DNA from: Acorus gramineus
Lineage: Eukaryota > Streptophyta > Magnoliopsida > Acorales > Acoraceae
Direction: 5' to 3'
DNA length: 64,000 bases
NCBI GenBank assembly: GCA_030737835.1
Contig: CM060856.1
Coordinates: 14,611,116-14,675,115 of the forward strand
The position numbers were made by a program, and so were the translations under genes. Positions within the stretch are counted from its first letter, which is position 1; each line of letters starts with the position of its first letter. Below, piece by piece: positions 18,521 to 60,910 of the stretch. Below the pieces are notes generated by a model, which was given only the letters and a program-made list of their open reading frames with translations, was not told where the DNA came from and ran no database searches.

Positions 18521-18616
18521 ATACCGATAATAAAGAATTCGATCGTCATCTCATCTGATTTCGTCTCTCCCTTCGAAAGTAAAAAAAAAAACGAGGGTTT
18601 AGATTCGATCGATTCG

Positions 18617-31900: not shown

Positions 31901-34900
31901 CTAAACAAGTTCAGTTATTATAATGATATGGTTCGTATTTTCTATTTCAGTCAAATTACTTGGCTAGAATAGGAAGAGAATTTGTTGAGCAGAATCTTGT
32001 GATCTGTGTTTAACTAACAGGGTTATTATCATGGAATACCATTATTGGATTAATGTGTTTTCTGAGCCTTTTTTTCATAAATGGAATGGATGTGTTTATA
32101 TTCAAAAGTAATAGTGTTTACAGTTATAATTGAACTTTAATATCGAGCAACACACTCATTAAATGATTATTAACTTCTGTTGTCATATTGGCAAACCCAC
32201 TACTGCACAATGATTATAGAACATTATATTGAGGGGTATAAAAAATGTGGTAATGGGACTCATATCCATGTTTGGAGCCATGTCAGACACTATTTTCATG
32301 TCTTCTTTAACACCCGCATGGATATCTGTAATTCATTGAGTCGTATGGAGGTGAAATGTCTGTATCTTTGTGTCTGGTCTGACACTGAAACAAGTTTTTG
32401 TGTCATTCTTACATTAAATATAACTTATTGATATAACAATATATCACCATTGATGATGATTGCATACATAAATGATAAAATTGTTGAGATTAATGTGATG
32501 AGATTCTGATTGGTGTTTTTACCGACTCAATTGAATTAAGTGCCGGAGAATAAAATCTTTTTTTGGCTTCACCTATTCATATTAACCGGTTAACTACAAT
32601 AGGTTACTAGCAAAAACAAAAAATGAATAAAATGAAAGGATAGAAATCATAAGTTTCCTCACGCTTAAATACAAATTTTGTCTGCTTTAAGAATGTTAGC
32701 ATGTAATCCTTCAGGAACCAGACTCTGTTATCCCGTGGTTGTAGGATCTTTTTGTGTTTTCAGATAGTCCTCTAGTAGAGCTCTCTTCTACTGGGGACTT
32801 ATCTGGGTGCTTCTTCTTTGTTATTTTCATATGTTTCTTTTTGTATCCCTGTTTTGGGCTTTCTCTCTTATTCTAATAAAATGAGGGCGATTGCCTACCG
32901 TATCTTTCTAAAATAATAAAAAAAATCCTGTGGTTGTGTCTGACATTGTACCTCTGGGGATACTCAATATCCTGAACTCTGTATAAGAATCAGGAGTTAA
33001 CATTAGCTCCATCTTGTTAATATGTTTTGTTTATATATTAGTTCACAAATCTCCCTTTGTCACGTCAACGTGACATTACTATTGCACAATGATGGATCAC
33101 AGAACACACCATGGTCGTGTTTGTAGTTGTACTTCAGCTTTACTAATTCTACTCCTAATCCACAACATTCATATGACATTATTGATGTATCAAGTAAATA
33201 CGCCAAAGATGATTTTACCTTGAGATACTCTCTCAACGATCAACTAGGGACACTATCTTTTACCCATTCTGGATACTTTCTCCACTATCAACTTGAAACA
33301 CTATCTTTTACTCATTCTAGTCAATCTGTTTGATCTTTATTGAGCCTTGCTCACTGGATCCCTCCGCATATGATGTTTCTTTTTTTGAGTAAAAGCTTCT
33401 TCATTTTTTTATAACTTGGAACTTTTTTATTTTAACCACTTATTCCCAATATCTACCTTGCTATCTTGTGGGGGTCTGAGAGGTTTACTCAGAGTAGGAT
33501 GATTTCTCATTGTTTTTCCATTTACCAAATCTGTACTGTGCAAGGTTATTAGAGTTGGCACCCCAGATGTTCTGGATTCTGTTTAGACTCTGGGACGTGG
33601 CCTCAATCAATGACATCTGAGTCTTTACTATCTGGGTTCTAGGATATCACCTAAGGAGCGATAAAACTGCTTTTTTCTTATACTTATTCTATTAAGGTTC
33701 GTGAATGATAAACTGCGGTTTTTGCACAATATTTTCTCATTAACTTTATATTGTGTGTTTAATGCTCAGTGAATGGTGAATTTTGCATTATGCATTTACG
33801 CTTTTGTTTGCATGCATTTTATATGTCAGTCTCACTGCTGGTTTATATTTAACGGTCATGGATCAGAATTTGTCTCCTTGCATAATTAACAGCTATTTCA
33901 TATGGTAAAGTATTTATTAATGTGTAAAATTGAGTTCTCTATGTTGTTTAGTGTGCTTATAAGGAATAATGGTTTTATCATAAATATTTTCCGGTGAATC
34001 CCTTTTTAGTCCTGTTTAGCTGGTGATAAGCCTAGGTGCCCAGGTATTCATTGGGTGCACCACTCTGTGTCTGGTTGGTTCCCCTGACAGGCACTGGGAA
34101 TGCATATTCAACCATTTGCAGTGCTTGTCTGCATTAGACATTTTTCCAAGTTATCATTTTCATTGAAGGCAATCTAATCGAACATCCTTTTAATGAATGC
34201 ATTGTGACAGCTAATGGACTCCCAAATCTTTCAGAGACTTGCCTACAAATTTCTGTATGGTTTTCTAAGATGAATGCTGAACTACATCCCATAGAACTTT
34301 CAGCCATAGTGATCAAACACTACTTGAAAATGGTTCTTCTGTTCAGAAACAAAATGTTCCAAATGTTCCTGGAAATTCTTACTCCTGTTGGACCATTTGT
34401 ATCCATATGCATTTGGATCACCTCTCAGGCCTCCCCGACTGATTCTACCATAGAGGCCAACGATAGACAATAACTCCCCCCCGAACACAGCTTACAACTT
34501 TCATCGTACTGTGCTCTCCAAAGAGCAACTCTTCTCAAAATCTCAAAAGGTGCTGAGTTGGAATCCCATTCTAAGGATTCTTGTGGTTCCGGAGGATCCA
34601 GCTACAGAAGAACCAGGAACAGAGAGCTCTCCCCCCTTTTTCGCCCGACTCTTTGGTCAACAAAAATTATGCTTCGCAATTCCATAATCCAACAATTTGG
34701 ATTCAATTTCTAATTGAATTAGCAAACCGAGCTTTAGTTAGTCAGATAACACCCCTCCTCAAAAAAAAAAAAACTTTCGGCCATAGCAAAACAATTTAAT
34801 GTTGAGATTTAGAACCTAAAATGAGCATCGAATACGTTTCACATAAAGTTTGTATCCTCTTCTAACACACTTGCATGTGCACACATACACAACTTAAAAT

Positions 34901-38475: not shown

Positions 38476-38686
38476 CCAACCCCTCTCTTGACGAAGTCCC
38501 CACGATTTTTCGCTCTTCTCTCCTCTCGTGTCTTTCCTTCCCCGAACCCTAACCCTAGTTATTTTTCGATCTCTCCCGTCGAAGAATCAAATCGATTCAA
38601 TCGATCGATCTAGGGTTTATTCTGATTCCTCTCAAGATTCCGATCGGTTCCCGGGATCTTGATTAGTCAGATTCGGGTGGGTCAGG

Positions 38687-41600
38687 ATGTCTAGGTGCTT
38701 TTCGTATCCCCCACCGGGGTATGTGAGGGACGAGGTCATGATGGAGCTCTCTAAGGCCCTGATCGAGCAGTCTAAGGTTTGTTGAGCATTTGTTGCTTGA
38801 CGTTGTTCTGGCTCGGTTTATGTTGTTTTCTTTGTGTTCCTAAAGAATGGATGATTCGGAACCCTAAAACTGTATATATGAAAATCTTGTTGTATATATG
38901 TACAATGATGTGGTGAAGGAAAGGATGAGCGATTGGTATGTCTTGTAATCCTAAGATTTTTCCGTTGTAATGGGTATTTGGTGACTAGATTAAAATCTGA
39001 GACATAGTTGAATTTCTTTATCTGGTATTTGAGAGATAGTGGATTTCTTGATGTGGTGTATCTGTGGTTTTTTGAGTCATAGGAATCTATTGTGTGCATT
39101 TATTCAATCACATGGTGGTGGGTTTTGTCCCCATGAATTGATTTATTATTGGAATTTCAAGAAAGTCATATCAGATGTGGTTTTAAGTTCTTTTGTTAAA
39201 TAACTTACCCATCTTTCTTTGTCATGCCTGTGGCATCCTTCCCAATAGCATTAGATCTTATTGGATAATCGGTTCTATTTCCATCCATTTACTTCATCCT
39301 GTGGAGATTATTAACACTTGCCAGTTGTGAAACTTCAATAGCACCGTTTGTGATCATATTGTTCTTGAATTAGTTGTAAACTGAAGAAGAATGATGATCC
39401 CACACAGAATAAAGTTTCTGGACTTGGGTGTTGGAGATAAGTTACAATATTAATGCAGATTGAGATAAATTGAGGTTTTGGATATATTCTATACCCACCT
39501 TTGTCCTAAAAGACAATCTGTGTTGATGTCATAACATTCTCCGGTCTTAGGAATGCAGTTTGAATTGATTTGAACAGTGCATCATAAACTTTGGAGTTTT
39601 ATGTTGTAGATAAGATTTTCTGGTCCAAGTCGTATAAGTAAATGGAGACCTAGAAATAGAATCGGGATGTGGAGGTTTGTTGAACCATGGGGATCTTTAG
39701 ATATGACAGGATAGTAATTGTTGATTGGGATTCTTGGAGGTTCTGGTCCTATAGGACATGAATTTAAATCTCTCTCTTAATGTGCAAATAGATTTTTTAA
39801 GATATTATTTCATCTGAATCATTTATGTGATGGTGATCTTGTAGCATGTGTATCTTGCATGGGGCATTTTTTTGGCAATTTGATTGGTTGATTTCTAGAA
39901 AACTGAGGTAGTTATTCATGGAATAAGATGTTACTGCCACTGCTCTCCATGTTTCAACGGGAAAAGAAATCTTTGAAGAAGTATATTAAATACCCCATGC
40001 ATATTTTTTATTATTAGAATAGAGATATATGCATTTAAAAAAATTGAGGATCTTTGTGGCTGGGGAATGCATAGTCATTGTTGCTTTAGATGTATACAAC
40101 TGGATTTTTTTCTGGAGATTGTTGTGTAGCATAAAATCCCTTGTTTCAAATGAATTTATCATGTTGGAATTTTCCTTTGTTGGGTATAATAATATCATGA
40201 ATGGATAATAGTTTGCAACTCTCCCTGTTAGTGCTGTTTGATTAATATAGTTGGAAAGGAAGCTTTGGCACAGATATAGGTGCATAGGATCATGCTGTTG
40301 TAATAGAGTCTGCTCCTTGCCCATCTAGCTTTTTTTTTTGGTGAGTTCTGGTGTCCTTAATAACCCATGTTATATATAGATGTGAGGCAATGGATTGATA
40401 ATTAGATTGCAGTGGGGAACTTATTAGTTAGGACACACTCGAGATTGCTTTATGGATGGAACATTTAAAAAGTCTATTTGACAGTACTTATCAGTGAAAG
40501 AGAGAATTTATGTAAGTTGCCTTTTTTTTTCCAGGCAGATTCTTCTTTGGGTTTTCACACATGAAATTATTACTTGTAAGGTCAGGGTTCTCCCATTGAT
40601 GAATATTTTGAATATTCTGACAGTTGAATTGGTTACTTGGTTTATCATCTGCAAATGAAGGATTCATTTGTTTACAGGCTATTTTTTTCTCTTGATCTTT
40701 CAGCTCTTTCTTTGGGTCATCCGACTTGTGTATGGAACTGAACATGATTTGATCGATGCTTAATGGATGTCTCATATTAGAAATTAATCTAGGGTGTCTT
40801 TGACTTGTGGGATAATATTAGATAAACTGAAACTATTAATGTCTCATATTAGCAATCGAGGGTGCTTTGACTTGTGCGATAGATTATGATCAACTTAAAC
40901 TATTTCTGATTTGAGTGGTGGCTAGGGGTTGCACATGGAAACTTTTTTAAATTTTAATCATATATGAGTCAACTGAAAAAACTAAGAAATACTAGATCTT
41001 GCCATCTCTGTGAAATGCGTGGTTGCTTAATGGCATAATTGTTGCAATTTATTGAATTTCTGGCCGTGCTATATTTATTTGAGCATATGCCAGTTTAAAG
41101 TAGAATCACTCTTTGTATAAGTGGATTGTGTGGCTATGATGCTTATACACCATGCATTCTCCTCTTGGGTTGTCCTTCCATTTCTCTACTCTGTCATGGA
41201 ACTGATAATTGTCCGGACCATTTGATGCTCTAGAAGGAGAAGAAACGGGTCAAGGAGAGGAGAGAAAAGAAAGGGGAGAAAGAAGGGAAAAAAGAGAAAT
41301 CTAAGGAACATCAAAACAAGGATGAGAAAAAAAGAAAGCGCGAGAAGAGCCACAAGGATGAGAGCAGCAACCAAGGACTAGGAGAGGATTTGAAGAAAAG
41401 GGACAGTGACTCTGAACATCTGGAGAAGAGTGGCCTCACCGAAGAGCATGGTGTTCCTTGCTCAGCACAGTATTCTCCAGATTCTGACAGTACCCAGAAG
41501 ATTGCAAAGAGGAACAAGACCTCTGCTTCCAAAACTGGCCACATGAACAACCATGGTGAATATCTATATCATCAAAAGTTGTCTGGTTGGTTGCTTGTGC

Positions 41601-42225
41601 CACTTCTCTCAGACAATGACCCTTTTATACTGTTTATGTGGTATGTTGTGTAGTTGCTAATGAAAAAACAGGGAGCGTCCTCATCATCAGGTTGCCATCA
41701 ATCAAGCGGAAGCACCCAGAGCCACCCTGTGAGGATGAGCCTTCCACTTCTTGCAGGGCTGAGCCCACTTTTGAAAGTGCTTCTTGCAGGACTAAAACCC
41801 CCACTGAAAGAGGGGAGCCCTCCACTTCTCGCAGAGCTGAGGCTACTCTACAAAGAACAGAGCCCTCCACCTCATGCATGGCTGAGGCCACTCTTCAAAC
41901 TAGGGTCCCCTCCACTGATCATCGTGCTGAGTCCAACCCCTTTAAAAGCAGTTATGATAAGATGGAAGCAGAGTACGCCAACTTGATAAACAAGTGGCAA
42001 CCACCTCCGATGCAGTTTGAATGCACGGAACCTGAAGACCTAGATTGGCTCCTTGGGACCAAGCAGCAGCAGCAGCATAACCAGCAGGCCCTGAAGCGAT
42101 GTGGCAGTAGTGAGCTCACTTCTGCAAAAGGTTCTGGAAAAACCATTGCCCCTTGCTGGCCGCCCCGTGCATGTTATTTGCCGGAGGCAGGTATATACGC
42201 GCTGCCCTATACTGTTCCTTTCTGA
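38687..42225 (+). CDS. Lysine-rich MSRCF-type protein ('myb-like protein X'-like), 3 exons, 321 aa
   Basis: Member of an uncharacterised plant family recognised by an N-terminus like MSRCFPYPPPGY and a C-terminus like YALPYTVPF. Exons 38687-38776, 41234-41555 and 41672-42225 join with correct phase and GT-AG borders. Exon 1 gives MSRCFSYPPPGYVRDEV. Exon 2 is a highly charged Lys/Glu/Arg stretch (KKEKSKEHQNKDEKKRKRE) that looks like nuclear localisation signal and disorder. Exon 3 opens with the conserved GSVLIIRLPS, contains four imperfect repeats of about 15 residues (EPSTSCRAE type), then YANLINKWQPPPMQ and EPEDLDWLLGTKQ, and ends ACYLPEAGIYALPYTVPF. Function is unknown; nuclear location is inferred from composition. 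Intron 1 is 2.46 kb. The name 'myb-like protein X' reflects composition only: there is no MYB domain. Confidence 0.88.
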
Positions 42226-43140
42226 ACTGTACAATGAGAGAATTAAAATATTTGATTTGTGAGGTGAGAAAGAAGTGGGGGTGATTCCTTTTTTTCCCCC
42301 TTTGCGGCAATTGTTTCGAGTTTGATGTGAGGCAGAGGATGCATGTTGGTGCATACTTTCTATTTTTTTTTATCAATAGATAACAGCAATTCAATTTTTC
42401 AGTTGAATGTGAGGTTTCGTTTTTCGTTTTGTTTGTGGCAATCAAATAGCAAGAGAGAGAATGATTTAATGAAAGTTTAGATTTTATATAATAACAAAAT
42501 AATGTTATCCTGTACTGTGATGTTTTTATACACTTACAAAGCAAGTAATGAAATTTTTTCTAAAATAATTTATATTTTTATAATTATATACTAGGTAAAG
42601 TGCATGCGTTAAAGCGCGTGTTAATTACTAATCACATATACGCAATGAATAACTAATAAATGAGTCATTCAACGGAAAAAAAAAAAAGAATAAAAATCAA
42701 TTTGATCTATGAATATATTTTCTATTTGAAACCTATCATAAAAAAAATAATAATAATAATTTCATAATAAAATTCATTATTGTATATACTTCATTTTTTG
42801 TTAGTGGTGGTGTTAATGGTAATTGTGAACCCCACTGAAATTAGAATCATACATGTAAAAAAATAAGATGAAATCAAATTCTCACCATTTTTTGTGATAA
42901 TTTCAAATTCTACCAAGAATATTAATCTAAATTATTATCCTACCCTTTATTTATATTTTTTTTAAAATAAATAGCATCTTCTCTCTTTTTTTTACTCAGT
43001 GTCTCCTCTCTTTATTTATTTTTATTTAACTAATTTAACTAATTTAAAAAAATTACTCTAAATACGTATTTAACACTGAGAAACTATTGCATAGAATTTT
43101 ATGAATTAGAAGTTTGGAAAAATATGGACTCGGCACATGT
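42226..43140. other. 3' UTR and AT-rich spacer
   Basis: The 3' UTR of the lysine-rich protein gene, then strongly AT-rich DNA without genes. Confidence 0.45.
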
Positions 43141-45180: not shown

Positions 45181-45263
45181 ATTAATTTTTTGAGGATTGG
45201 CACCCGTAGGCCCCCGAGAGTGTCGGGTCTCTTTCAACCCGACCCGGTTCAACCCTCCGTCCC

Positions 45264-45270
45264 TATAAAT
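45264..45270 (+). promoter_or_regulatory. TATA box of the second SKP1 gene
   Basis: TATAAAT lies 130 nt upstream of the ATG at 45394, followed by an A-rich and CT-rich leader. Confidence 0.6.
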
Positions 45271-45393
45271 TGGGGATCAACAGAGACAGAAATAACAAAA
45301 ACAAAAAAAGCTTCCACTTTTCTTCCCTCCAAATCCCCTCTCCAAGAAAATCAAATCGATCAAAAGCTCTTCTCCTCTGTTTCTTCACAAACA

Positions 45394-46988
45394 ATGGCTT
45401 CTCCATCGCACACGAGGACGGTGACCCTCAAGAGCTGCGACGATGTCGAGTTCGTCTTGGATGGATCGGTCGCGACCCTCTCGCAGACCCTGGTATCGGC
45501 CATGGCCGAAGACTCGTCTTCATCCGACGATGGAACCTTCACTTGGTGCGTCTCCAACATCACCGGTGAAGTCCTCGCAAAGGTCGTCGAATTCTGCAAC
45601 AAACACGCCGACATCAGCAGCTCCCGCGGCGAAGATCTCAAAGAATGGGACAAAGCTTTCATATCGGTCGAGCTGGATCTCCTCTACGACCTCATCTTGG
45701 TAACTCTTCCACTCTGTTTTCTTTATTTCTTTTCTTCTGGTGATAATCTGGTTGTTAGGTTCTATTAAAAATCTGTTCTTTCTTGAATTTTGTGTGTGTG
45801 TGTGGAGAAAACCATATTGAAAGTCATATTCTTTCTTGAACAGAAATCTATTAGTAAATGTTCTGTTTAGAGTCCCTATGTAATGAAAGATGAATGATAT
45901 GACAGTTTGATTTCATGATTGTTGTTTCGGTCATATATGGTATCCTTTATTTCTTTTTGTTGGTGATAATCTGGTTGTTAGGTTATATTAAAAATCTGTT
46001 CTTTCTTGAATTTTGTGTGTGTGTGGAGAAAACCATAATGAAAACCATATTCTTTCTTGAACAGAAATCTATCAGTAAATGTTCTGTTTAGAGTTCCCAT
46101 GTCATGAAAGATGAATGATATGTCAGTTTGATTTCACGATTGTTGTTTCGGTCATATATGGTATCCTTTATTTCTTTTTGTTGGTGTGATGTTTTCTTGA
46201 TTAGCTTTCAGAGTTCTGATAGTTTTAAATTCATCTAACATTCAGAAGTTTTTTTTAAAAAAAATTTAAATAGCAGAGCTTTTGTATATAAAGATTAATC
46301 TAAAAGTTTTCTCTATCAATTTAGGTAGATTTAATGTGTGAATGTTGTAAAAGACTACTTTGGGTTTGTGATATACTATTCATTTGTTGTATGTGTGTTT
46401 TTCTTTACTGTGATGCTTGAAATACAGATATCTTGTCTCTGTCCCCATAAATTACAGTACACTTGAATGTTGTTAAAGATTACTTGCTGGATACTGATCA
46501 AGTCTTTATAGTTTCTTACCGTCAAAGTTAGATTTAGTGTGCAAATGTTGTTTCTGATACAATATTCATGTGTTCAATATATGTGTTTCTCCCAAGTTTT
46601 GATTGAAATACAGATATCTTGTCTTTGTCCCCATAATGTACAATACACTTGAATGGTGCTTAGACATATCTTTGAGATTTTGTTTTCCCTTTGTCACAGT
46701 TGAATCCTTTTATGGTACTGGAAATAGATTCAGAACTGGATTCCTTTACACTCTGTTCCTTTTTTGCTGATTTTTTTTTCCATATTCCAGGCAGCAGACA
46801 ACCTTAATATAGAGAGCCTGCTGGACCTTACAGCCCAAAGGGTTGCGGACGAAATCAAGGGGAAAATGCCCCATGAGATAAGGATGTTGTTCAACATCGA
46901 AAAAGATTTCACCGATGAGGAGGAACGGGAGATCCGAAGGGAGCATGCGTGGGCCTATGGAGGAGAAAGTCTTAAGAGTTTCCTGTAA
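45394..46988 (+). CDS. Divergent SKP1/ASK-like protein, 2 exons, 167 aa
   Basis: Second SKP1 homologue, expected to bridge F-box protein and Cullin1. Exon 1 45394-45699 (102 codons) and exon 2 46791-46988 join in phase 0 after YDLIL, the same intron position as the gene at 18617. N-terminal half: [30 protein letters not shown]-terminal half: [37 protein letters not shown]. It is clearly more diverged than the first gene: the acidic loop is replaced by a Ser-rich stretch, and the usual terminal WAFE is [12 protein letters not shown], extending the tail by eight residues. The frame is intact with clean splice sites, so I call it a gene. Whether the altered tail still serves F-box proteins generally or only a subset cannot be seen. 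Confidence 0.92.
45720..46190. repeat. Tandem repeat, about 228-bp unit x2 plus a partial third, in the intron of the second SKP1 gene
   Basis: The block starting CTTTATTTCTTTT at about 45720 (GTGATAATCTGGTTGTTAGG, then a TG microsatellite, then TTTCTTGAACAGAAATCTAT) repeats from about 45948 with a few substitutions; a third start is visible at about 46168. A related version of this intron is found again at 49464-49695. Confidence 0.85.
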
Positions 46989-47379
46989 GAGAAACTACAC
47001 TGAATGTCTCAGAAGATTGCTCATCTTTTATGGATGGGTATGGTATTGGGGCCTTAGGGGTGTCAGAAGACCTCAATTGGTTTCTGTTTTCTCTTTTGGT
47101 CCTTTTTTTTGCCTAAGAAGTCATGCTTTCTCTTACATTTGTTACTGGGATTGTACTGAATTGTCAAATTTTCCAATACTCCGGTAATAGAATTTCATAT
47201 CACTTCCTTGTTGAATATTTCCAATTTTTCTTGACAGAATTTGTCAATTTTTTGGAGCTGAATCTAATTTGACTTCTCCCCCTGACACTTCATATAAACT
47301 CTGCTGATGCAATAACATAATCAATTCAAACTCTTTCTCCCAGTTATCCCTCTCATAGATCAAGTGCAAACCACAAGTT

Positions 47380-49293
47380 GCCACAGTCCATCTGTTTTGT
47401 CAGTTCTTTCACTGCTTTGTTTGAAGCTTAAACATTTTATGAGGTCAATTTAAAAAAGAACAGCTTGTCATTTATGACCAAATATTGTGTTTCAAATCTA
47501 AGTTGAAACTTAGTGTACACTTGTCATATTGCATTTTTTATGTGTGTGTTCTTGGATATGGGTTTTGTCATATAATCAAATTTATTGGATGTACATCAAA
47601 CTTAATTTGTTCATTTTTTTTTACTATGATTGTTTGGGTTTTTTTTTTTTTAAAGAAGATACGAATGTTTTCATGTTAGGTCACTTCCCATTGAACATTC
47701 TTAAACAATGATATTATATATGTTGTGATTGTCAAGAACTAGTTGAGAAGTATACATGTGATTAACCCGCACAGATGAACTAATCCATGTTCATTACTTT
47801 CATTTAGATTTCTACGTTTATTACAAACACAAACTCATCTCCATATGCAGAGGAGAAATGACTTTAGGACTGTAGGAATGACTTAAGTGTATTAGCGCCC
47901 ATGTTATTATTTCAAAGTAGCTACTTATGTTGGAATCTGAAATTTTTTGTGTCCAAATTAAAGCAGAGGAGAACTACCAGATATGGACAACTGAATGCTG
48001 ATGCCTTCAAATTGGCATCAATATTTGACTACCTGCATTGACTCAACTAGGAAGTCTGGAATAAGTTATGACAAACAATGTAAATGTCTGTTTCAAGTGT
48101 CATCTTTCTTGCACAAGTGATATGCCTTATCTATGCACATCTGCATGTTTTCATGTGGACGTGGTCTTCCATCTGAAAGTCAATTTGCAAGACAAAACAT
48201 GCCCTCCCCAGTCTCTTTCATCACAAACTGTGTATTTTTAACACAAAAAAATATTGATTTGAAGCTTTGGACAAACTCTAATTGAAAAAGATGATGAACA
48301 AAAGCAGATTATATTGATTCTTTTAAAAGAAAAAAAAGAAAATAATTGAGGACGAACATTGAGCTGTGTCCATCTCTTCTAACAAACTTATATCACACAA
48401 CACTACCTAACCCTGAATCTTCCTTGCAATGGGAGAATTATTACATCAAAAATGCAAACTGGTCCAGTTCATATGTACAATTTATGCAACTGCTTGCCTC
48501 AGTGTCCTGTATGAGCCAATTTGGTGGCGTGTAGTTTTTTTCTCCATGTATCAGTAAAATTTGGAACTAATCAAAGCTTGAAGAGCGGCTCCAACGCCCT
48601 CGCAAGTACTCTTCAATGGAATTATGGTAACCTTGTTCCATGCTACTAAATGATGTATCATCACTTACGTTGAGAAATGCAAGTCCAATATGTGATTGCA
48701 CGTCTGAGGCCGGATATGCCTCTTCATCATGATTTTCTAGCTCCTTTAGAGAGAAGGTTTGGGATTCGGCCAGTGCATTGAAATCTTCTTTCCCTTTCAG
48801 AAGATTTAGTACCTGAGAACATCAATATAGGATATATATACCCCCATGACTATCTTTTCATTGACTTGTAACAAAATTTCAATCAAAATTCATTAGTGTT
48901 AGTCACTGAAGCATTACTTGGCTCATGTGGGGGCGGAGTCGGGCTGCCCTTGTGATGCAGAGGGAAGCGGCTAACACCATTCTTTGCATCTGAGCTTCAT
49001 CAAATTTTCCATTCAGATTTGGATCAAGAATATCTGCTATATCTCCTTTCTCAAGCAATGGAGTTGCCTTTACATGAACAGATTAAGTTTAGTTTCATCA
49101 TCAACAATAGAGTGGTGATCTTACCCACATAAGCAAGATATTATCACCAAAGGTTTGAGGACTTACCCACATTACCAAGCTCTCTTGGCCTTTAGGATTC
49201 TCACTGTCTATTGGCTTTCTCCCAGTCAATAGTTCGAGAAGTACTACTCCAAACGAGTATACATCGATCTTATCACTGACCTTCCCATGCATG
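47380..49293. repeat. Segmental duplication, copy A
   Basis: Matches 52715-54607 in the same orientation. It begins at GCCACAGTCCATCTGT, just after the second SKP1 gene, runs through the sequence 3' of the kinase gene and its last three exons, and stops abruptly inside the kinase exon at CCCATGCATG. Identity varies along its length: near-perfect around 47459-47630 and 48570-49293, clearly lower with indels between. Confidence 0.93.
48567..49293 (-). pseudogene. Truncated kinase copy (last three exons of the USP-domain kinase)
   Basis: Exon remnants 48567-48812, 48918-49067 and 49167-49293 match exons 11, 10 and the 3' part of exon 9 of the kinase at 53881-57012, with the same splice sites and an intact stop. 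Only the kinase C-lobe from about residue 546 and the C-terminal tail are present; the ATP-binding lobe, HRD and DFG motifs are absent, so it cannot be an active kinase. The break is at 49293, where unrelated AT-rich DNA begins. Lack of decay in what remains suggests recent duplication or conversion by the intact gene. Confidence 0.92.
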
Positions 49294-49430
49294 GTTAAAA
49301 AATCATTATTAGGATAATATTATATCTTTATTGTCATTATTGTGATATTATTAGTTTCCTAGTTTTTTTAGATTCCTTATCTGTATTTTAAGATTTCCTC
49401 TATGTATCTATAAATAGAGCCATTTTGTGA
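49294..49430. other. AT-rich insert, possible LTR fragment
   Basis: This joins the truncated kinase to the SKP1 scrap. It holds TTAGTTTCCTAG, TTCCTTATCTGTATTTT and TATGTATCTATAAATAGAGC, which resemble the promoter part of Ty1/copia LTRs, but no primer-binding site, paired LTR or target duplication is visible. The call is weak. Confidence 0.35.
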
Positions 49431-49695
49431 ATGTTGTTAAAGACTACTTTGCGTTTGTTAAAGACCTCATCTTGGTAACCCTCTCACTCTGTTTTCTTTC
49501 TCTTCATTCTTTCTTTCCTTGTGATATTCAGGTTGTTGGGTTTTATAAAAAAATGTGTTCTTTCTTTCTTTCTTCTCTTCTGATGATAATCTGGTTGTTG
49601 GGTTTTATAGAAAAATCTGTTCTTTCTTGAATTGTGTGTGTGTGTGAAGAATACTGTAGCTTTCTTGAACAAAAATCTATCAGTGAAAGTTCTGT
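49426..49695 (+). pseudogene. Shuffled SKP1 gene fragment
   Basis: GTGAATGTTGTTAAAGACTA at about 49428 matches the middle of the intron of the SKP1 gene at 45394 (about 46336). It is followed directly by GACCTCATCTTGGTAAC, which matches the end of that gene's exon 1 plus donor, then about 230 bp of the intron start (GATAATCTGGTTGTTGGG, TG repeat, TTCTTGAACAAAAATCTATC). The pieces are out of their native order. Homology stops at GTTCTGT, where the hAT element starts. No coding capacity remains. Confidence 0.82.
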
Positions 49696-52600
49696 TAGTG
49701 AATCGGGCTAATGGGCTATCGGGCCGGCACAACACGGCCCATTTCTTGTTCACTTGTCGTGTCGGCATCATTATCTATATTGAATTTCATAAAATATACA
49801 TCAAGATTATCTACAAATTCTTGTTCTCTTTCACCAGCATCACCCCAGTCCTTAAGACACATGAGAGATTCCAGTGAACTTGCTTCCAGTCTGGTCCTCC
49901 TCTGAGATAATGTTCTCACACATGCACTAAAAGAAGATTATGATGTCACTGTAGACATTGGAGGAGTTAGTAAATCTCTTGTCATTATAGAAAGCACAAT
50001 AAATGTCACTTCATGTGCTTTCTACTATTGCAAGAAAACAAAGTTTTACATCTCCTTTTCAGTTAAAAGAAACTTCTAATCATTTTTTAAATATTTGAAC
50101 AGTTCATTAAGATAAGAACCATTACTACTAGAATCATGTGAAATATGTGAACCTTGTGAAACAAAATCAAAGAAATAATATTTTTTCTTATCTTTGTCTA
50201 ATAAACTAATAGATGAAGTGGAAGATGATGTTCTAGTTCTATTTGCATATTTATGTTCATATTTTTTCTACATTTTAGTTAAAGCAAATTCTACATTTTC
50301 ACCCATTATAACTATCGAAAATCTAACATTATCACTTATTCTTTTAATTATAGTTTTAACAGTGTCTAATTTAATAATAATATCCATTACAACAACTAAA
50401 CAAAAAAAACATAGAAATATCTTTAAAATATTTTTAAAATTTTGGTTCCATCAAAATAATAGATTGTTGAAGTATACTATAATCTCTATATTCTTTAAAT
50501 GTACAAAAAATGTTAAATAATTGTCTGAGTATAAGATTTGAAGTAGGATAATAAACATCTGAACAAGCAATAGATGCATCATAAAAAACATTTAAAAATT
50601 ACACAAAAACTTTTAAAATTTGCCAATCAATTGGAGAAATATCAACATGATTAAAGTCAATAGTTAAGTTTTCATAACTCTCACAACTTTACAACATTAT
50701 ATATGTAGAATTCCAACAAATATGCATATCGAGAGAAAATTTTCTATGAGGAACATTGCGTGTCACACAAAAATCACCAAATGCTTGTACTCTAGATGAT
50801 GTACAAGTAATAAATTTTATTGCTAATCTAATATTTACTAAAGATTCTTCAACATGGGTTAATCCATCTTGCACAATTAAATTAGCAATATGACATACAC
50901 ATTTACAATCATAAAATTTAAAATCATAAGGTAAGCTCAAAGAATATTTAAATTTTGAAATAGTACTAATATTATTACTAGTATTATCAAAAGTTATGGA
51001 CAATTTTTTTCAGTTATATTATATTATCTAAAAATATCCATTATTGCTTGATAAATTACTGTGCCGGTGTGTGAAAGTGTAAGTTGACGACAAGCTAACA
51101 TTATTTTATTTAACATTCAATGAGAATCAATATAATGTGAAGTAACACAAATATAAGCTAAATCATTCTTACCGGTCCATAAATCAGATGTGTATGAAAT
51201 TTTTTGAATGACGATTGAATTAAATAATTTTTCATTTAGTTATAAACTCTAATTATATCAATTCTAATAGTATTTCTAGAAACAACTCTATATTGTGGAT
51301 TAACATACATTTTTTGAAAACGTTCAAATCTTCTACTTTCAGCAAATGTAAATAATTGTTCATCAGATGCTATATATGCATATAAACCTTCTCTCATACT
51401 ATCTCATACTAGATTGATTATAACATAATGTTGAAATTGTACCTTCAGTACTACCTGTTAAACCGAAACTCCCAATTTGAGACTGCAACCGAGATTCAGT
51501 TGTTGTTGATACTTTTTCAGACATGATTCAACATGTCTTTTGAGATGTCCAATACTACCCGCACTTGCACAACTAAAAATTTTGTTACAATATTTACAAA
51601 CAACTCTCTCTTCCATTCTATCTTGATGTTTAATATTCTGTATTGTGTAGTGCTCTCAAACTTTAGACTTCCTACTTTTTTGGGGTTTTTTATTTTTTAC
51701 CAGCTGGGGGTGACTAGATGAGGCACCAAGTCACCAACATCACTTCCAACTGATTCATGGGGGGTTTGGAATTGGTCTTGGGGTAAATCATTTGGTGGGC
51801 TATCTATATTTTCAAATCCATCACAGTGTTTAAATATTCTATGTTTGGGTTGACCATTTGAAATTTAGAAAAGGAAAATTTAAAATAAGAATTTAAAATT
51901 TAAAATTAAACTTTAAAATTTGAAATTTGAATAGTTAACATTTAAAATTTTGGAAATTTGAAATTTAAAATTAAAATACACTTTTTTTTTTAATTTAGAA
52001 TTAATTTGAATTTTAAACTTAAAATACACTTTGTAAAATTTAAAATTTCAAATGTGTAGAGACTAGAAACTAGAGAGGGAGAGTGAGACTAGTAGAGATT
52101 AGAGATTAAAGAAAGAGAGAGAGAGAGTGCTTCCCCTAATCCCCTTAGGCTTAGAGAGTTGGAGCATTGGCCTTTACCGGTTCCCACCTTTTGAAGTGAA
52201 CTTTCCCTTAAAAAAAGCCTTGAAGAAATGAAGATTGGAGAGAGAGAGAGAGAGCTTCCACCACCACTTCAATTGGACTGAAGTTTTCGCTTGAAGAGAA
52301 AGAGAGCATTTGAACACTAAAGCACTTAAAATTCCAATACAAAACTAGACAACTTTAGAGGAAAAAGATAATGTAATAATGGATGAGTAGAGAGATTTGT
52401 GATTGAATTGATGAAGAAACAAGTGGATAGTGTGGGGGTATTTATAGGTATAGTTTGGGTGAAAAATTACCTCATATACCTTTAAATATAGTTATTTTTT
52501 TAGATGGGAACGGGATAATTTAGTCAACAAGGGGGTTTTTGGGTGCCGGCTCGTTGGCTCGTCCCAACAGCTAATTGGACTAGCCGCAGCAATGGTGGGG

Positions 52601-52714
52601 CTCGCGGCACAAACCGTGCCGTGGGCCTAACAGGTCCAGCACGGTCGCCCGGGAGGGGGGGGGCACGCCCAGCCACGCCGGCCCCTAAATGGGTTGTCCC
52701 GTATTACACCTCTA
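49696..52714 (-). mobile_element. Degenerate hAT transposon with BED zinc finger
   Basis: Read on the minus strand, the ends start TAGAGGTGTAATACGGGAC (right end, 52714) and, less well kept, TAGTGAATCGGGC (left end, 49696), with subterminal GGCCGGCAC-type motifs at both ends. Transposase remnants appear in order: a BED zinc finger at about 51510-51620 (VVCKYCNKIFSCASAGSIGH, then LKRHVESC); a core segment at 50689-51003 (TFDNTSNN, CHIANLIVQDGL, RKFSLDMHICWNSTYIML); and the C-terminal dimerisation part at 49716-49919 (RTLSQRRTRLEA, ESLMCLKDWGDA). Stops and frameshifts separate them, so it is inactive. No 8-bp target duplication matches across the ends. Confidence 0.88.
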
Positions 52715-54607
52715 GCCACAATCCATCTGTTCTGTCTGTCAGTCATTTCACTGCTTTGCTTAAAGCTTAACATCCTATGAGGTTAAATTCCAAAAGAACA
52801 GCTTGTCATTTATGACCAAATATTGTGTTTCAAATCTAAGTTGAAACTTAGTGTACACTTGTCATATTGCATTTTTTATGTGTGTGTTCTTGGATATGGG
52901 TTTTGTCATATAATCAAATTTATTGGATGTACATCAAACTTAATTTGTTCACTTTTTTTACTATGATTGTTTGGGGTGTTTTTTTTATTTAAAAAAATTG
53001 ATATTTTTCATGTTAGGTCACTTCACATTGAACATTCTTAAACAATGATATTATATATGTTTTGATTGTCAAGTACTAGTTGAGAAGTATAGATGTGATT
53101 AACACACACAGATGAACTAATCCATGTTCATTAATTCATATAGATTTCTACATTTATTACAACACAAACTCATCTCCGAATGTGGAGGAGAAATGACTCT
53201 TTAGGACTGCAAGAATGACTTATTAGCAGCCATGTTATTATGTCTAGTAGCGACTTAAGTTGGAATTTGGAATTTATTTTTTTTTTGTCTAAATTAAAGC
53301 AGAGTCAGATATGGACAACTGATGCCTTCAAATTGGCCTTAATATTTGACCATCTGCACTGACTCAACTAGGAAGTCTGGAATAAGTTATGAAAAACAAT
53401 GTGGACGTCTGTTTCAAGTGTCATCTTTCTTGCACAAGGCATATGCCTTATCTACACATCAGCATGTTTTCATGTGGGTGTGGTCTTCCATTTGAAAGTC
53501 AAGTTGCAAGACAAAACATGCTCTCCCCAGTCTCCATCATCGCAGGTTGCGTATTTTTTACACAAAAAAATATTGATTTGAAGCTTTGAACAAACTCTAA
53601 TTGAAAAAGTGGTTGAACAAAAGCAGATTACATTGATTTTTTATAAGAAAAAAAGAAAAGAATTGAGGACGAACATTGAGCCTTGTCCGTCTCTTCTAAC
53701 AAACTTACATCACACAACACAACCTAACACTGAATCTTCCTCGCAATGGAAGAATTATTACATCAAAAATGCAAACTGGTCCAGTTCATATGTACAATTT
53801 ACGCAACTGCTTCTCTGTGTCCTGTATGAACCAATTTGGTGGCATGTAGTTTTTTCTTCACGTATCAGTAAAATTTGAAGCTAATCAAAGCTTGAAGAGC
53901 GGCTCCAACGCCCTCGCAAGTACTCTTCAATGGAATTATGGTAACCTTGTTCCATGCTACTGAAAGATGTATCATCACTTACGTCGAGAAATGCAAGTCC
54001 AATATGTGATTGCACGTCTGAGGCCGGATATGCCTCTTCATCATGATTTTCTAGCTCCTTTAGAGAGAAGGTTTGGGATTCGGCCAGTGCATTGAAATCT
54101 TCTTTCCCTTTCAGAAGATTTAGTACCTGAGAACATCAATATAGGATATATATACCCCCATGACTATCTTTTCATTGACTTGTAACAAAATTTCAATCAA
54201 AATTCATTAGTGTTAGTCACTGAAGCATTACTTGGCTCATGTGGGGGCGGAGTCGGGCTGCCCTTGTGATGCAGAGGGAAGCGGCTAACACCATTCTTTG
54301 CATCTGAGCTTCATCAAATTTTCCATTCAGATTTGGATCAAGAATATCTGCTATATCTCCTTTCTCAAGCAATGGAGTTGCCTTTACATGAACAGGTTAA
54401 GTTTAGTTTCATCATCAACAATAGAGTGGTGATCTTACCCACATAAGCAAGATATTATCACCAAAGGTTTGAGGACTTACCCACATTACCAAGCTCTCTT
54501 GGCCTTTAGGATTCTCACTGTCTATTGGCTTTCTCCCAGTCAATAGTTCGAGAAGTACTACTCCAAACGAGTATACATCGATCTTATCACTGACCTTCCC
54601 ATACATG
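52715..54607. repeat. Segmental duplication, copy B
   Basis: Partner of 47380-49293. It begins GCCACAATCCATCTGT immediately after the hAT right end and continues without a break into the intact kinase gene. It differs from copy A by scattered substitutions and small indels, mostly in 52975-53880, and very little within the kinase exons and introns. Confidence 0.93.
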
Positions 54608-57012
54608 AAATATTCAGGAGCTAGGTACCTATAATTATCAATAAAATGTGCTTAGAATCCAGCATTAGAAATCAAATATTGATATATACATAACCAATAA
54701 TCACAAGACAGCAATTACATACCCAAAGGTCCCAACGACATCATTGTGTGTTGCATAAGATGTTGTGGGTGCCCAGATAGCCAAGCCAAAATCAGATAAC
54801 TGTCAAATATGAATTGAACACCCTTAAAAATCTAAAACTTAATGAATCTCTACTTATACTGTGAATCATTATGTATATGTATACCTTTGGCTCAAATTCA
54901 TCTGAGAGAAGAATATTTGAAGATTTGACATCTCTATGGATTACGGGCCGAGAACTGCCACTGTGTAGGTAACTTAGAGCATCTGCAACTCCAATGGCCA
55001 CCTTAAACCTCACATCCCAAGGTAGCGGTGGTTTAGTACTTGTACCTGTGGAAACCAAATTGAGGTTATGATAAGTTTATTGAAAAACAATTTAGGCTAA
55101 AGGTCACAGCATCTTAGTATAACTAACCATGGAGGTTTTCCTCTAGGCTCCCTCTAGATAAGAAACCATAGACCGATATAAGGTCATCATCTTCAATACA
55201 AACGCCCGTCAGAGGCAGGATATTGTCATGCTTCAATGTAGTTATTATGTTGAACTCCAAAAGGAAATCTTTCCATGATTCTTTTGATGATTTGAAAACT
55301 TTTATGGCTACTGGCTTGCTATCAGAAAGAGATCCCTTGTACACACAGCTAGATCCACCCTTTCCAATCAAGTTATCTGTTCAAAGTTGTATAAAAACAA
55401 TTTTAAGTTACACATGGACTTAAAAAGTTAGATAATTTTGAAAATTTAAAACTATACATGCATCAAAAGATGGACAAAAGAGAGGACCTTGAGAGAATTG
55501 ATTGGTTGAACTCTGAAGTTCTTTGCGACTGAACCGCCTGATACTCGAGGCATTAGATTTCAGAAGAGTCTCCAAATCATTGTGCACCTCTATAGATGGA
55601 TATGGCTCTTGTTCAAACAATTTTTGGGAGTTATTCAGATCTGTCCGAGACTGTGGAGTCGAAGGTGAAGACCTACTAGGCAGGTTCATCACCCACTGTA
55701 CCACAGACATTTTCCTAGCATCTTTGTCTCCCAAAGTTTTAGGAATATCCGATATCGATCTTCTAAGAAGTGGCCAACCAGGCTTATCGGATGGAAATTC
55801 CTTTAGAGTAGGAGAAACTCTAGCTGGAGCAGCTTCTTCTGGTTGTTTACAAACAATAGGAATTTCTTTTGAGGATTCATTCTGTGTGGTTTCTGATTTG
55901 CTTGATTTGGAATCCTTTGGTGAATTCTGTTTCAGTGTATCCATATTCACATCGAGTCCATTTCTGGACTTTTGACCCAAATTTGATACAGATTTTTCTA
56001 TGAAAGATGACTTTGGAGCTACAACCTCAGGTTTTACTTTAGAACTAGGCATTGGAACCCTTGTGTCTGTACCATCCTTCTTTAGCCGTTTCGGATAGCC
56101 CTTTTTCAGCTTTGCATCAGCTTTAACTCCTAATAATCAATTCCTTTAAGTTAGACTTGTACAAGTCAAAACCAATAACAAATTCAAGATTTCAGGAAAC
56201 TTATCAGACTAACATATAACACATGCATTAAACATTTATGTCATGTTAGAAGAGATCAATAATAGAACAGAACCTGATGTTGGTGCAGTAGCGACCCTCT
56301 CAAAGATGACCTTCCCATCTTGAACTGCAGTTACAGTGGCTGTTGAAGGCAATTTTTCGGCACAAAATCTAGCCAGCGAGAGTGAGCCACTGAAAAAACA
56401 TTGCTGCTTTGGAGCAATCAGAAGTAAAACAATGTAAACATATAGATTGTTCTATCACATTGAATGACTACAAACACTTACCCAAAAGCACTGTCCTTGC
56501 ATATTCCCACAATCACTGTCGTCGCAGCACATCGTTCGGCCTCCCTAACCAAAATTTTCCGAATTGAGTTGCCACGTGAGACCCGACCCACTAGAGATAC
56601 CTATGAATTCAAGGAACAATGAATTACTTTGATGAGCTTGAAATATTGAATTAAGCAGAGATGATGAATTCAGTTGGTACCTTTTTGGTTTTACACAAGG
56701 CTTCATATTCTTGCAAACAAACATCCACTGATTTTATCAAGCTCAAAGTGGAGGTAATTCGAAGATCTGAAACTTCAAAAAGATTTTATCACGCGTTTCA
56801 TAGTACAAAACGATGAAAGAATCATAAAAATGGAGCAATTCAGGACCTGAATCTCTGCAAACATGAATGGCGACCACACGATCATCCGGTTGAGCAACCT
56901 TAGTGAGGGCCCAATTGATCAAATCTCGGCCATTGCTGTCGATTCTGATCCCCACAAGTATGCACCTTCCGTGGCTCTTGTTGCCATCCCCTAAACCTCC
57001 CTCGGCCGTCAT
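53881..57012 (-). CDS. Receptor-like cytoplasmic kinase with N-terminal USP domain, 11 exons, 719 aa
   Basis: Ser/Thr kinase of the plant USP-plus-kinase group (RLCK VI-like; no signal peptide or transmembrane segment seen). Exons in transcript order: 57012-56847, 56766-56681, 56600-56482, 56389-56274, 56129-55488, 55376-55128, 55045-54885, 54799-54723, 54628-54481, 54381-54232, 54126-53881; all phases close. Residues about 13-160 are a universal stress protein domain ([31 protein letters not shown]). A Ser/Lys-rich linker follows, then the kinase: glycine loop [12 protein letters not shown] (about 380-391), VAIK Lys402, HRDVKSSN with Asp498, SDFG Asp516, GTFGYLAPEY, and C-lobe [18 protein letters not shown]. 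All catalytic residues are present. I chose the ATG at 57012 because in-frame stops lie just upstream and the only earlier in-frame start-like codon is TTG. Confidence 0.94.
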
Positions 57013-57099
57013 TCTTTGCTCTTCAACTATCGGAACTTCGGAGATCTCTTGTTCCAACTTTCCTCAGCTTTACTTGATAAAATCAAATAAACCCATCTC

Positions 57100-58255
57100 A
57101 ACTAAAACTGGTTGAGCTTCCCATCTGCCATTAAAATTCACTTAAATCAGCATTTGAAGAGTTCTTAACTTAATGGAATCATAACAAGCAAAGAATAGAA
57201 TAAAAGAAAATCAAAATATAACCAAGCATGGAATAAGAAAGTACAGGGTCACATATCCAACAAAGGATCAGACACGAAATCAAAGCAAAAACTATCTGAT
57301 ATGATACATATGAAGTAAACCCATATAAAAGGTCTCCTGCTTAAGCCCCCCAACATAAAGATTTGCCATTCAAAACCAAAAATTTCAGACAACTCACAAC
57401 AAAACCTTAAAAACCAAGCAAAACCCACCTCCAATAAACTCAAACAAACACAAAAAGAGAGAGATTTCCAATCTCTTCAATCAAAGCAGAACCCACAAAT
57501 GAAACTCAAATAAGAGACCCACTCAAAGAAACCCCCCATATTTGAAGAGACCATCAAAAGAACCTTTAAAACAAACAAACAGAAGGTAAAATTCAGACCC
57601 GCAACCAAAAAAAAAAAAAAAAAAACCCACCTAAAAATTCTTGTTCATTTGTCACATTCAACGTAGACCCACATTTAAAAAATCCATTTTTTTTCCTTTG
57701 CCCGCCAAAGGACTCTGCAAGCTCATGAGTCCACTCGACCTACTCCAACTAATTTTTGTTTTGAATTTCTTAAAACAACTCTTTAAATCCAAAGTCCCCC
57801 TCTTTTTAATATTCAATACAAACAAAAACAAAAGGAGAGAAAGAGAAGATGAAAAAAAAAAACAGCTGATTTTTTTAATATATATACATACGGAGGTGAC
57901 CGGGCACTTTTCGCGGGAAACCCCTGATAAACGGTCACAGCATCGACCGACACAACGGTCTGGGGATTCATGACCGGCAATTGCGGGTGATATTTTGGGC
58001 TGCAGAAGCACGTGACGGTTGTTAATGGTTTCAGTTTTTTTACCGCTCCTTTGTGGTGACATTGACGAATCTACCCCTGGTGGGTTGGGGACGATGGTTT
58101 ACTCTAAAGGGCATAATTGTAAAAAATGAATGGATCCCCATCTTGCTTGGGGACTCCAATAACATGTGAGGGCTCTGCAAGTTCTTTATTAACAATAGTT
58201 TTACAGCCGGTCTAATCCCACCAAACCAATTACTCTCCTCCAACCCAATTAAGAG
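57100..58255. other. Upstream region of the kinase gene
   Basis: Probable 5' UTR, UTR intron and promoter of the minus-strand kinase. It contains an A20 run at about 57608 and a GC-richer patch at 57890-58080. No separate gene supported. Confidence 0.45.
57876..57888 (-). promoter_or_regulatory. Possible TATA box of the kinase gene
   Basis: On the minus strand a TATATATA-type run sits about 870 bp upstream of the ATG. A 5' UTR intron would be needed to fit this spacing; the C/A-rich stretch at 57400-57650 (plus strand) could be leader. Weak. Confidence 0.3.
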
Positions 58256-59350
58256 TTAAAACATTTTATTTTAGACACTCATCACACTAATAATCTCACT
58301 TGACACAAATTTTATCATACTAGAATGTTTAATATGACCCAAGGTGTGTCACCCAAAATTTTTCAACTATAATATTTCAGTTGCGCGACACACCTTGAGT
58401 CACCATAAGTTGTTCTATTTGACATACTCGAGTCAAACTAAGATGTTTACTATGACTTAAGGTGTGTCACATAGAATTTTTCAATTACGATATTTTAGAA
58501 GTAATGTGACGCCTTGAGTCACCATAAGTTATTTGATTTGACATACTCCGAGTCAAACTAGAATGTCCACTATGACCCAATGTGTGTCGCCAAATACTAT
58601 CTAATTGACAATAAGTTAATTTTTTTTATCTATCATAAATATCATAAATACACAACAAATAAAATATCATAAATAAACAACATTCGTATACATGGTCATA
58701 TAAGTTAATTCAACATTCATATATCCAACCTGCACATTCACAAATCCAATACATTATTTTTTTCACAAATGAAAACCTACTATTAACATAACAGTCTTCC
58801 CTGTTAAAAATGTATACATCCAAATTCAATTAATTAACGCATCCACATTAATACATTTTTTTACTTAATACATTGTTCAAAAGCCAAAATATAATATGGA
58901 TGTGTTCGTTGGTTGAATTTGGATGTGTGAATGTTGAACAAGGAAGACTGTTATGTCAATAGTATGTTTTCATTTACGACAAAATAATGATTAGATTTGT
59001 GAATGTGCATGATATGTACGTGAATTAACTTATGTGATTATGTACGTGAATTTTGTTTATTTATGATATTATTTGTTATGTATTTATGATATTTATGATA
59101 GATAAAAAAATTAAATTATTGTCAATTGAATAGTGTTGGACGACACACCTTGGGTCATAGTAGACACTATGGTTTGACTCAGAGTATGTCGAACTGTACA
59201 ACTTATTTTGACCCAAGGTGTGTCGCGTTAAAATATTGCAATTGAAAAATTTTGGGTGACACACTTTGTGTTATATTAGACACCCCAGTATGACTGGGTT
59301 TGTGTCAACTGAAATTGATAGGATGAGTGTCTAATATTAAATGTTTTAAA
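58256..59350. mobile_element. About 1.1-kb foldback element (long imperfect inverted repeat)
   Basis: The left arm begins TTAAAACATTTTATTTTAGA and runs to about 58830; the right arm ends with the inverse, TCTAATATTAAATGTTTTAA. Shared arm features include TTAGACACTCATC, GACACACCTTGRGTCA, ACTATGACCCAA-GTGTGTCG, ATCTATCATAAATATCATAA and ATAACAGTCTTCC. The left arm carries an extra roughly 120-bp internal duplication of the GTGTGTC/GAGTCAAACTA block. No coding capacity. Confidence 0.85.
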
Positions 59351-60910
59351 TTTTTATTGGATTGGGAGGGAGAGCATTTAGGTTGGTGGTGATAGACGGG
59401 CTCATAGTTTTATTTATTTATTATATATATAAATGTTACTGTTTAACCTATGTGAAATATTGGGTAACGAATGGAGTTAATGTGAAGATACTATACTATA
59501 CTTACTTGACTTTGGAAGCCATCTGACCAGACCATCAAATCTAGGACATTTGAATTGGACTGTGATTTCTTTATTATTTTTTTGAGAATTCTAGGTCAAG
59601 TATTTAGACTCTATAACTGATAGCAATAGAAAGTTCACTTTTTTTAATCTTTTGGGAGGTTGGAAGTAGAGAAAGTTGTTAGAAGTTTTATTACAATTAA
59701 TGGTATTAGATACTTCCAAAGCTCTCTTAGGGCACTCTCTTCATGGAAACTTTGAATGCACGCAATTATCCATAAAAGATGTACTTAAGGAGATTCTACC
59801 TCTCTTCCGAGAAGCAAACTCTGTAGCTAAAGTCAGAAAAACAATATCATGTAGGTATTCTAGTATATAATCTCCAAGTAAATGTATATGATATTCAAAA
59901 GTGATTTTGGGCTAGATATAACAAAGTTCTTCTAATAGAGTCCAAACAATATTTACCATTATATGTGTGTGCGCTTGTGTTAACCTCACAAAACTTAAAT
60001 CAACATTAGTGAAATTAGCAAAAAACTTGTACTTAACCTAGACTTCACCCCCCAAATAATCCACTATATTTCATTAAACATCCTTCTCATACAAATTTTG
60101 TTAGTGTACTCACTTTTATGAATGCGGATTTCATGACCCATTGGATCTTATGAAACAAACAATTATATATCCACAAACATTCAAACATCAAGACAATTTT
60201 TAAGAGGGTATGGCTTTATATACATCCAATCCTCAAATGAAAATGGTGGACAGCATAGCATGCATGAGAGAGTAGTAAAAGGGACGTTGAAACATCAATT
60301 TCACTCACATTATTATTATTAGTGGATTAAACTGTGGAACTATTCGATCTGTCGGTGGCACATTCATTCCGATCACATCAAAATCTATGGAAAATTTAAA
60401 AAGAGCTCCTCATGCATTACAGTACCTAACGATTTGGCCACCCAACTGAAAACAAAATTGCACCCACCTATCTGAAAATGATGATGCTGTACCTCTTCAA
60501 CCATTAGTGTTAATAAAACTGGATTAAGGGCTGTGATATTGAAACTTTTATATGTAAATAGGTATTTCCATAAGGTGAGGTAGATTTAGAATATAATATA
60601 CATGTTTGATATTAAAGGACATTGTTACATGTGCAATCTTATTTCACTACTAATGTATATATTTGAAAGATTTGTGTTTTTCTTTTTTGTGTTGTTATGA
60701 ATATATATAATTTATTAAAATGTATATTTTATTTTGTAAAGTTGCCTATTTCGTTTCTTGAATTACATACTTTTAAAAAATTAAAAGAAATCATGGATTC
60801 ACCAAATTGTCTATTTTCATATCATTGATTGAAGAGGTACTTTTTGGTATAAAAGGGGTAATGAATGTACGTTGTTATAAGGTATGAATTGCATGCAATT
60901 ATATTAGGTC
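59351..60910. other. Intergenic, no gene seen
   Basis: AT-rich. The short frame at 59676-59870 has no family character. Confidence 0.45.

Follow-up and report, generated by a model that had tools for sequence, protein, structure and literature searches.

How do two neighbouring genes come to lie in two adjacent units, one of which keeps only the first gene whole and the other only the second? This question is raised by a locus of Acorus gramineus in which an intact SKP1-like gene and an intact protein kinase gene enclose a fragment of the kinase, a remnant of SKP1 and a hAT transposon. The locus was investigated within a 64,000-nucleotide stretch of contig CM060856.1 (hereafter the window; C10:14611116-14675115 in the 398.6 Mb genome that was searched), and positions are those of the window unless another contig is named. 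A first-pass annotation had explained it by duplication of a two-gene unit and reciprocal gene loss. We place a probability of roughly 0.8 on a related history, in which a convergent SKP1-kinase segment was duplicated in tandem and its middle was later mostly erased, with transposons, deletions and gene conversion all contributing.

The order from left to right is intact SKP1, kinase 3' fragment, SKP1 intron remnant, hAT element and intact kinase, just as had been annotated; the locus had been started at 45190, and the SKP1 coding sequence begins only at 45394. SKP1 is read rightwards and the kinase leftwards, so that the two genes are convergent, and the interval between them is present in two direct copies. 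The features are as follows (LTR, long terminal repeat).

45394..46988, plus strand: intact divergent SKP1-like gene of unit 1, with two exons (45394-45699 and 46791-46988, stop included).
47380..48569, plus strand: copy A, formed by the DNA between SKP1 and the kinase together with the kinase 3' flank; it differs from copy B by about 10% and holds an identical 160-bp tract at 47454-47613.
48570..49293, minus strand: kinase 3' fragment, covering the final 127 bases of exon 9 as well as exons 10 and 11 and two introns.
49294..49425, plus strand: truncated LTR, presumably copia-type, beginning at LTR base 2 and missing its last ~47 bp.
49426..49696, plus strand: remnant of a second SKP1, with a 33-bp intron piece followed by the exon-1 end, splice donor and intron-1 start, in rearranged order.
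49697..52714, minus strand: decayed hAT transposon, the right terminus CACCTCTA abutting copy B and the left end decayed or truncated.
52715..53880, plus strand: copy B, intergenic and 3'-flank DNA contiguous with the intact kinase.
53881..57012, minus strand: intact kinase gene with 11 exons and 718 residues, a protein kinase domain and a weak N-terminal Usp match.

Self-alignment of 47380-49293 with 52715-54607 by BLAST gave 92.37% identity over 1927 columns (E = 0) in direct orientation, which bears out the homology previously suggested for these stretches. When the genome was searched with this repeat, only copies A and B and a paralogue on contig C4 matched. The copies are thus direct, adjacent and similar well above chance, as is characteristic of a tandem segmental duplication. 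Copy B continues into the whole kinase, and copy A stops inside kinase exon 9. Moreover, both genes are represented in both copies at similar divergence: the SKP1 remnant differs from SKP1 by 12% in its best alignment and by 19% in the alignment to the other half of the intron repeat, beside about 10% in the flank, and the 3' part of the kinase is found in both copies, but has apparently been converted. These observations support one tandem duplication that extended at least from the end of SKP1 exon 1 to a part of kinase exon 9. Each visible edge of the repeat coincides with a transposon end, which suggests that the copies were once longer on both sides.

Both outer genes have unbroken reading frames. 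The SKP1-like gene encodes 167 residues and has a GT/AG intron, and it belongs to the SKP1-like (ASK) family, since both Pfam domains exceed their cut-offs in the intact frame (Skp1, 2.4e-22, 78.9 bits, cut-off 22.3; Skp1_POZ, 1.9e-11, 44.4 bits, cut-off 21.9). No close paralogue of it was present among the matches found in the genome search, in which the best other full-length matches reached 38-40% and exon 2 of canonical SKP1 63-65%. The window itself holds a canonical second SKP1 gene at 18594-22085; the 45-kb gene is related to it but has diverged much further (exon 1, 39%; exon 2, 63%). The collinear partner of this canonical gene lies at C4 2987443-2992249 (80% and 88% in the segments holding the two exons). 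A further SKP1-like second exon at C4 2998211-2998432 (35%, one stop) is not a close partner of the 45-kb gene.

The intact kinase runs through 11 exons on the minus strand from 57012 down to 53884, with the stop codon just below, and all ten introns are GT/AG. As in plant cytoplasmic kinases with an N-terminal Usp domain, a Pkinase domain was detected (2e-41, 142.6 bits, cut-off 31.7); the Usp match at the N terminus, at 19.9 bits, stayed below the Pfam cut-off of 24. Beside the kinase, an inverted repeat of ~0.3-0.9 kb (76-78%) at 58205-59402 is perhaps a foldback element. The kinase fragment shows 5 mismatches to the intact gene in 725 aligned columns, has no stop inside its exon portions, and lies 1.6 kb downstream of SKP1 and antisense to it.

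We then considered what had cut the two copies. Kinase homology ends at 49293|49294, where the sequence of a large genome family begins. Among the 40 of 754 candidates that were scored, all 39 other matches extend over 49294-49425 with 95-97% identity (in one case starting from the second base) and all stop at 49425. The family starts with TGTTAAAGAATCATTA in 22/22 other rows, drawn from 19 loci, and the window copy begins at the second base of TGTTAAAGAATCATTA, directly after the last kinase base. Its relatives start with TGTTAAAG (22/22), end in ...TTCTAACA (19/22; one differs and two are cut off) and run on into TGGTATCAGAGCC in 11/22 cases; we take TGGTATCAGAGCC to be a tRNA-Met primer site and the family to be copia-type. 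The relatives thus combine a repeated sequence, TG...CA ends and an adjoining primer site, the window copy being without its 3' end, and the family element is an LTR of roughly 180 bp. Since the end of the kinase fragment coincides to within one base with the LTR 5' end, the break looks like a retrotransposon insertion.

Copy B likewise starts at 52714|52715, exactly after the hAT right end. The element encodes both a hAT dimerization region (Dimer_Tnp_hAT, 1.8e-6, 28.1 bits, cut-off 21.4) and a BED finger (zf-BED, 2.5e-4, 21.4 bits, cut-off 20.6). It belongs to a multicopy family: of 187 candidates 40 were scored, and 39 of these were long matches to other copies at 85-90%. The terminus CACCTCTA also ends two of the six hAT relatives that were fetched, the other four stretches being without such an end.

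These two edges bear directly on a simpler account, in which the duplicated segment ran from inside SKP1 to inside the kinase, so that the inner copies were partial from the start and neither outer gene was ever duplicated in full. This account requires fewer steps, and partial duplications of the kind are described in Drosophila (PMC5460883). Indeed, our first main model had duplication breakpoints cutting both genes, by which the outer genes would stay intact through geometry; it was dropped because the kinase break lies within one base of the LTR 5' end and the copy-B edge is a hAT end, both of which we read as insertions into longer sequence. The true duplication junction is no longer visible, and we therefore keep truncation by breakpoints as a rival. 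Although we regard it as unlikely, it may hold in part at more distant points, such as within kinase exons 1-8 or SKP1 exon 1.

The similarity of the two copies is not even. Divergence between copies A and B is about 10% of columns outside the kinase, against only 5/725 within the kinase part. Two of the three longest identical runs, of 410 and 206 bases, fall within the kinase part; the third, of 160 bases, is that at 47454-47613. In 10000 shuffles, which presuppose even divergence along the repeat, the longest run reached at least 410, 206 and 160 bases in 0, 2 and 55 cases, respectively; in the flank alone, none of 10000 shuffles reached 160 bases. This flank tract, 160 identical bases within 10% diverged DNA, had no Rfam match at gathering thresholds and may be either a second conversion tract or a constrained element.

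The paralogous kinase on C4 served as outgroup in a test for conversion. The two copies differ from each other at 25/296 flank, 4/523 coding and 1/183 intron positions, and from the outgroup at 63-65/296, 64-66/523 and 45-46/183 (25% in introns, 22% in the flank). The ratio of divergence between the copies to divergence from the outgroup is thus 0.06 in exons and 0.02 in introns, compared to 0.39 in the flank (Fisher's test: flank versus intron, P = 8.7e-5; flank versus kinase part relative to outgroup differences, P = 1.9e-6). Purifying selection was rejected as the cause of the near-identity, since the introns are as identical as the exons and outgroup introns are 25% different. Constraint does not account for introns that differ by 25% from the outgroup and by 0.5% between the copies; gene conversion does, as would a recent second copying event in exact register, and the excess of identity over local divergence includes neutral sites, as in a conversion tract. 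The kinase fragment has therefore likely been homogenized with the live gene by later gene conversion.

Four of the five remaining differences in the kinase part changed in the fragment and one in the gene. Such a bias is what a dead fragment next to a gene under constraint should show, and it fits decay after homogenization; it gives no direction of conversion. The 55 noncoding differences comprise 22 changed in A, 16 in B and 17 ambiguous ones. Dating by the kinase exons alone would make the duplication several times too young. The first-pass annotation had overlooked both the LTR that cuts the kinase and this conversion-like identity, which gives the fragment a far younger appearance than the remainder.

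A separate event, in which the kinase 3' end was recently copied onto the older duplication, would also account for a kinase part diverged by 0.7% next to a flank diverged by ~10%, with the switch falling within a few bases of the stop codon, and it would be compatible with the other steps of the history. However, the fragment stands in exact register with the older flank copy, carries its introns and shows no insertion scar at the stop-codon boundary, and the second identical tract at 47454-47613 suggests repeated conversion. We consider such a recent copy improbable.

The arrangement also raises the idea that the fragment is not inert. A read-through RNA from SKP1 would hold ~520 nucleotides complementary to the kinase mRNA with 4 mismatches, and plant pseudogenes that give rise to small RNAs are described (PMC2708354). 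If the fragment acted in this way, conversion would keep its match to the kinase fresh. That the fragment serves as an SKP1-linked antisense regulator of the kinase next to it, maintained by conversion, seems very doubtful.

The origin of the SKP1 remnant was examined by searching the genome, with common words skipped by the search. Beyond itself, the part at 49561-49696 had only two matches, at 79% and 78%, both in intron 1 of the neighbouring SKP1 gene, ~3.5 kb away. The remnant contains the boundary of SKP1 exon 1 with intron 1: the last ~12 exon nucleotides, the splice donor and the beginning of the intron. It ends where the hAT element begins. An origin from the other SKP1 gene (18.6-22 kb) was rejected, as no DNA match was found there, but only in SKP1 intron 1 at 45.7-46.1 kb. 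In its best alignment the remnant has 17 mismatches in 138 ungapped columns (12%), similar to the 105/999 of the unconverted left part of the repeat (a count that includes three nonhomologous edge columns); this is compatible with the same duplication, but not proof of it. Unit 2 has nothing that corresponds to the SKP1 segment 45868-47379 (~1.5 kb, including exon 2). SKP1 intron 1 contains a 245-column tandem repeat at 45721-46186 (93.9%) and a further repeat pair at 46364-46658 (80%), and the remnant carries an internal repeat of its own at 49490-49628. This intron thus seems to duplicate readily.

The position of the remnant also speaks to whether the hAT element itself made the duplication, by Ac-type transposition of reversed ends. 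There is a hAT between the direct copies, its terminus marking the exact start of copy B, and Ac-induced duplications have Ac at the junction and none at one breakpoint (PMC3744419). Nevertheless, copy A is separated from the hAT by the truncated LTR and the SKP1 remnant (49294-49696), no 8-bp target-site duplication was seen in the hAT flanks in the window, and second-SKP1 material to the left of the hAT suggests that the unit reached past it. Such an origin is therefore very improbable.

A collinear paralogous block was found on C4. Its 2970-3045 kb interval is collinear with this contig from 4.7 kb to ~80 kb in window coordinates, except for 22.1-38.5 kb, where there are no collinear matches; for this comparison the contig was followed past the 64-kb end of the window. 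There, the left neighbour of the locus (38545-42230 in the window) is followed within ~470 bp by a match to the kinase 3' flank and by one kinase, whose pieces cover residues 1-718. No second-copy fragment, hAT or SKP1 match was found on C4 between the left neighbour and the kinase. A block with a single kinase and no fragment indicates that the tandem duplication is younger than the block duplication; from these sequence comparisons it most likely arose afterwards, at 0.39 of the uncorrected flank divergence of the block. The single-unit ancestor that had been expected from synteny is thus matched as regards the kinase, which stands alone on C4, but not as regards SKP1, which is missing beside it. 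Either SKP1 was lost on C4 or it arrived on C10.

The tandem duplication with an eroded middle can be laid out as a series of putative steps. After the tandem duplication of a convergent SKP1/kinase segment, to which the two direct copies attest, a retrotransposon, presumably copia-type, may have inserted into exon 9 of the first kinase copy and a hAT element downstream of the second SKP1 copy. A single deletion could then have joined the LTR interior to the second SKP1, taking with it any copied part of exons 1-8 of the first kinase and of exon 1 of the second SKP1. Another deletion, next to the hAT, would have removed exon 2 of the second SKP1. Gene conversion would have re-homogenized the kinase fragment with the live gene, with no order relative to the insertions implied.

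This history changes the meaning of the complementary outcome. When the middle of a two-gene tandem repeat is lost, the outer genes are kept, and no selection for complementarity is needed. Since the 5' part of the first kinase and the 5' end of the second SKP1 were lost across one join, 49425|49426, the seemingly reciprocal losses need not be independent; exon 2 of the second SKP1 is missing separately, beside the hAT. The earlier view that unit 1 kept SKP1 and unit 2 the kinase thus holds as an outcome reached by loss, but not as two independent complementary decays. The locus may serve as a worked example of how a pattern of reciprocal loss in a tandem repeat can come from a middle eroded by two transposons and deletions, and of how the near-identity of one part of a duplicate can mean conversion, not youth.

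Several observations weigh against this history. The original ends of the duplication are gone, and full-length duplication of either gene is therefore unproven. The C4 block has no SKP1 between the kinase and the left neighbour, and a two-gene ancestor was thus not observed there. Aligned with the other half of the SKP1 intron tandem repeat, the remnant has 26 mismatches in 135 ungapped columns (19%), which is above the flank. Moreover, the 33-bp piece at 49426-49458, which matches 46337-46369, precedes the exon-1 end, in the reverse of the gene order, so that at least one further rearrangement is needed. The left end of the hAT has either lost ~46 terminal bp or is near-complete with small deletions, and its two ends aligned with a score no better than that of shuffles (140/500 reach it). 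Finally, a second, recent copying event in exact register could also produce the near-identity of the kinase part.

The least probable account, two haplotypes falsely placed in tandem by the assembly, is suggested by the nearly identical kinase parts and by a join known from the assembly alone, but the joins lie at ends of transposon families present elsewhere in the genome, and ~10% noncoding divergence together with structural differences is, in our judgement, high for haplotypes.

The locus gave no Rfam match at gathering thresholds and no match in a tRNA search. Elsewhere in the window, a perfect (100%) 223-bp tandem duplication with two copies head to tail was observed at 10156-10601, which is either very recent or an assembly slip. 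On the minus strand at 34456-34518, Rfam gave a match to a group II intron (42.5 bits against a threshold of 40), which may be a degenerate intron or DNA of organelle origin.

That a gene undergoes conversion with a tandem duplicate or a pseudogene of its own is a known type of event. The present case resembles it in having an in-register tract of identity, covering exons and introns, within more diverged duplicates. It differs in that the partner is a three-exon 3' fragment beside a live gene, and in that the direction is not established. Reciprocal gene loss after duplication, in its usual sense, refers to different lineages losing different copies. Here, too, each unit keeps one gene; however, both lie on one chromosome, the 5' losses share a join and no comparison of lineages is involved. 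Judged by titles and the openings of abstracts, no account of such a locus was recognized in the literature on plant SKP1 tandem duplication with gene conversion or on reciprocal loss of plant tandem duplicates.

With the Ac/Ds reversed-ends duplications (PMC3744419), the locus shares a hAT element that lies between direct repeats and adjoins only one of the edges. In contrast to them, copy A is 403 bp away from the hAT, with other DNA in between, an SKP1 remnant lies to the left of the hAT, and no target-site duplication was seen; in view of the intervening DNA and the unseen 8-bp duplication, we do not class it as Ac-type. The Drosophila study reports 76 chimeric genes from tandem duplications among 15 lines (PMC5460883). 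Its partial duplications are similar to the present locus in that parts of two neighbours were copied directly in tandem, with partial genes in the middle. Here, however, both visible edges are transposon ends, later erosion seems to have shaped the fragments and the duplication is much older. Set beside these systems, the locus is ordinary genome decay of a kind already known, in an unusually readable form.

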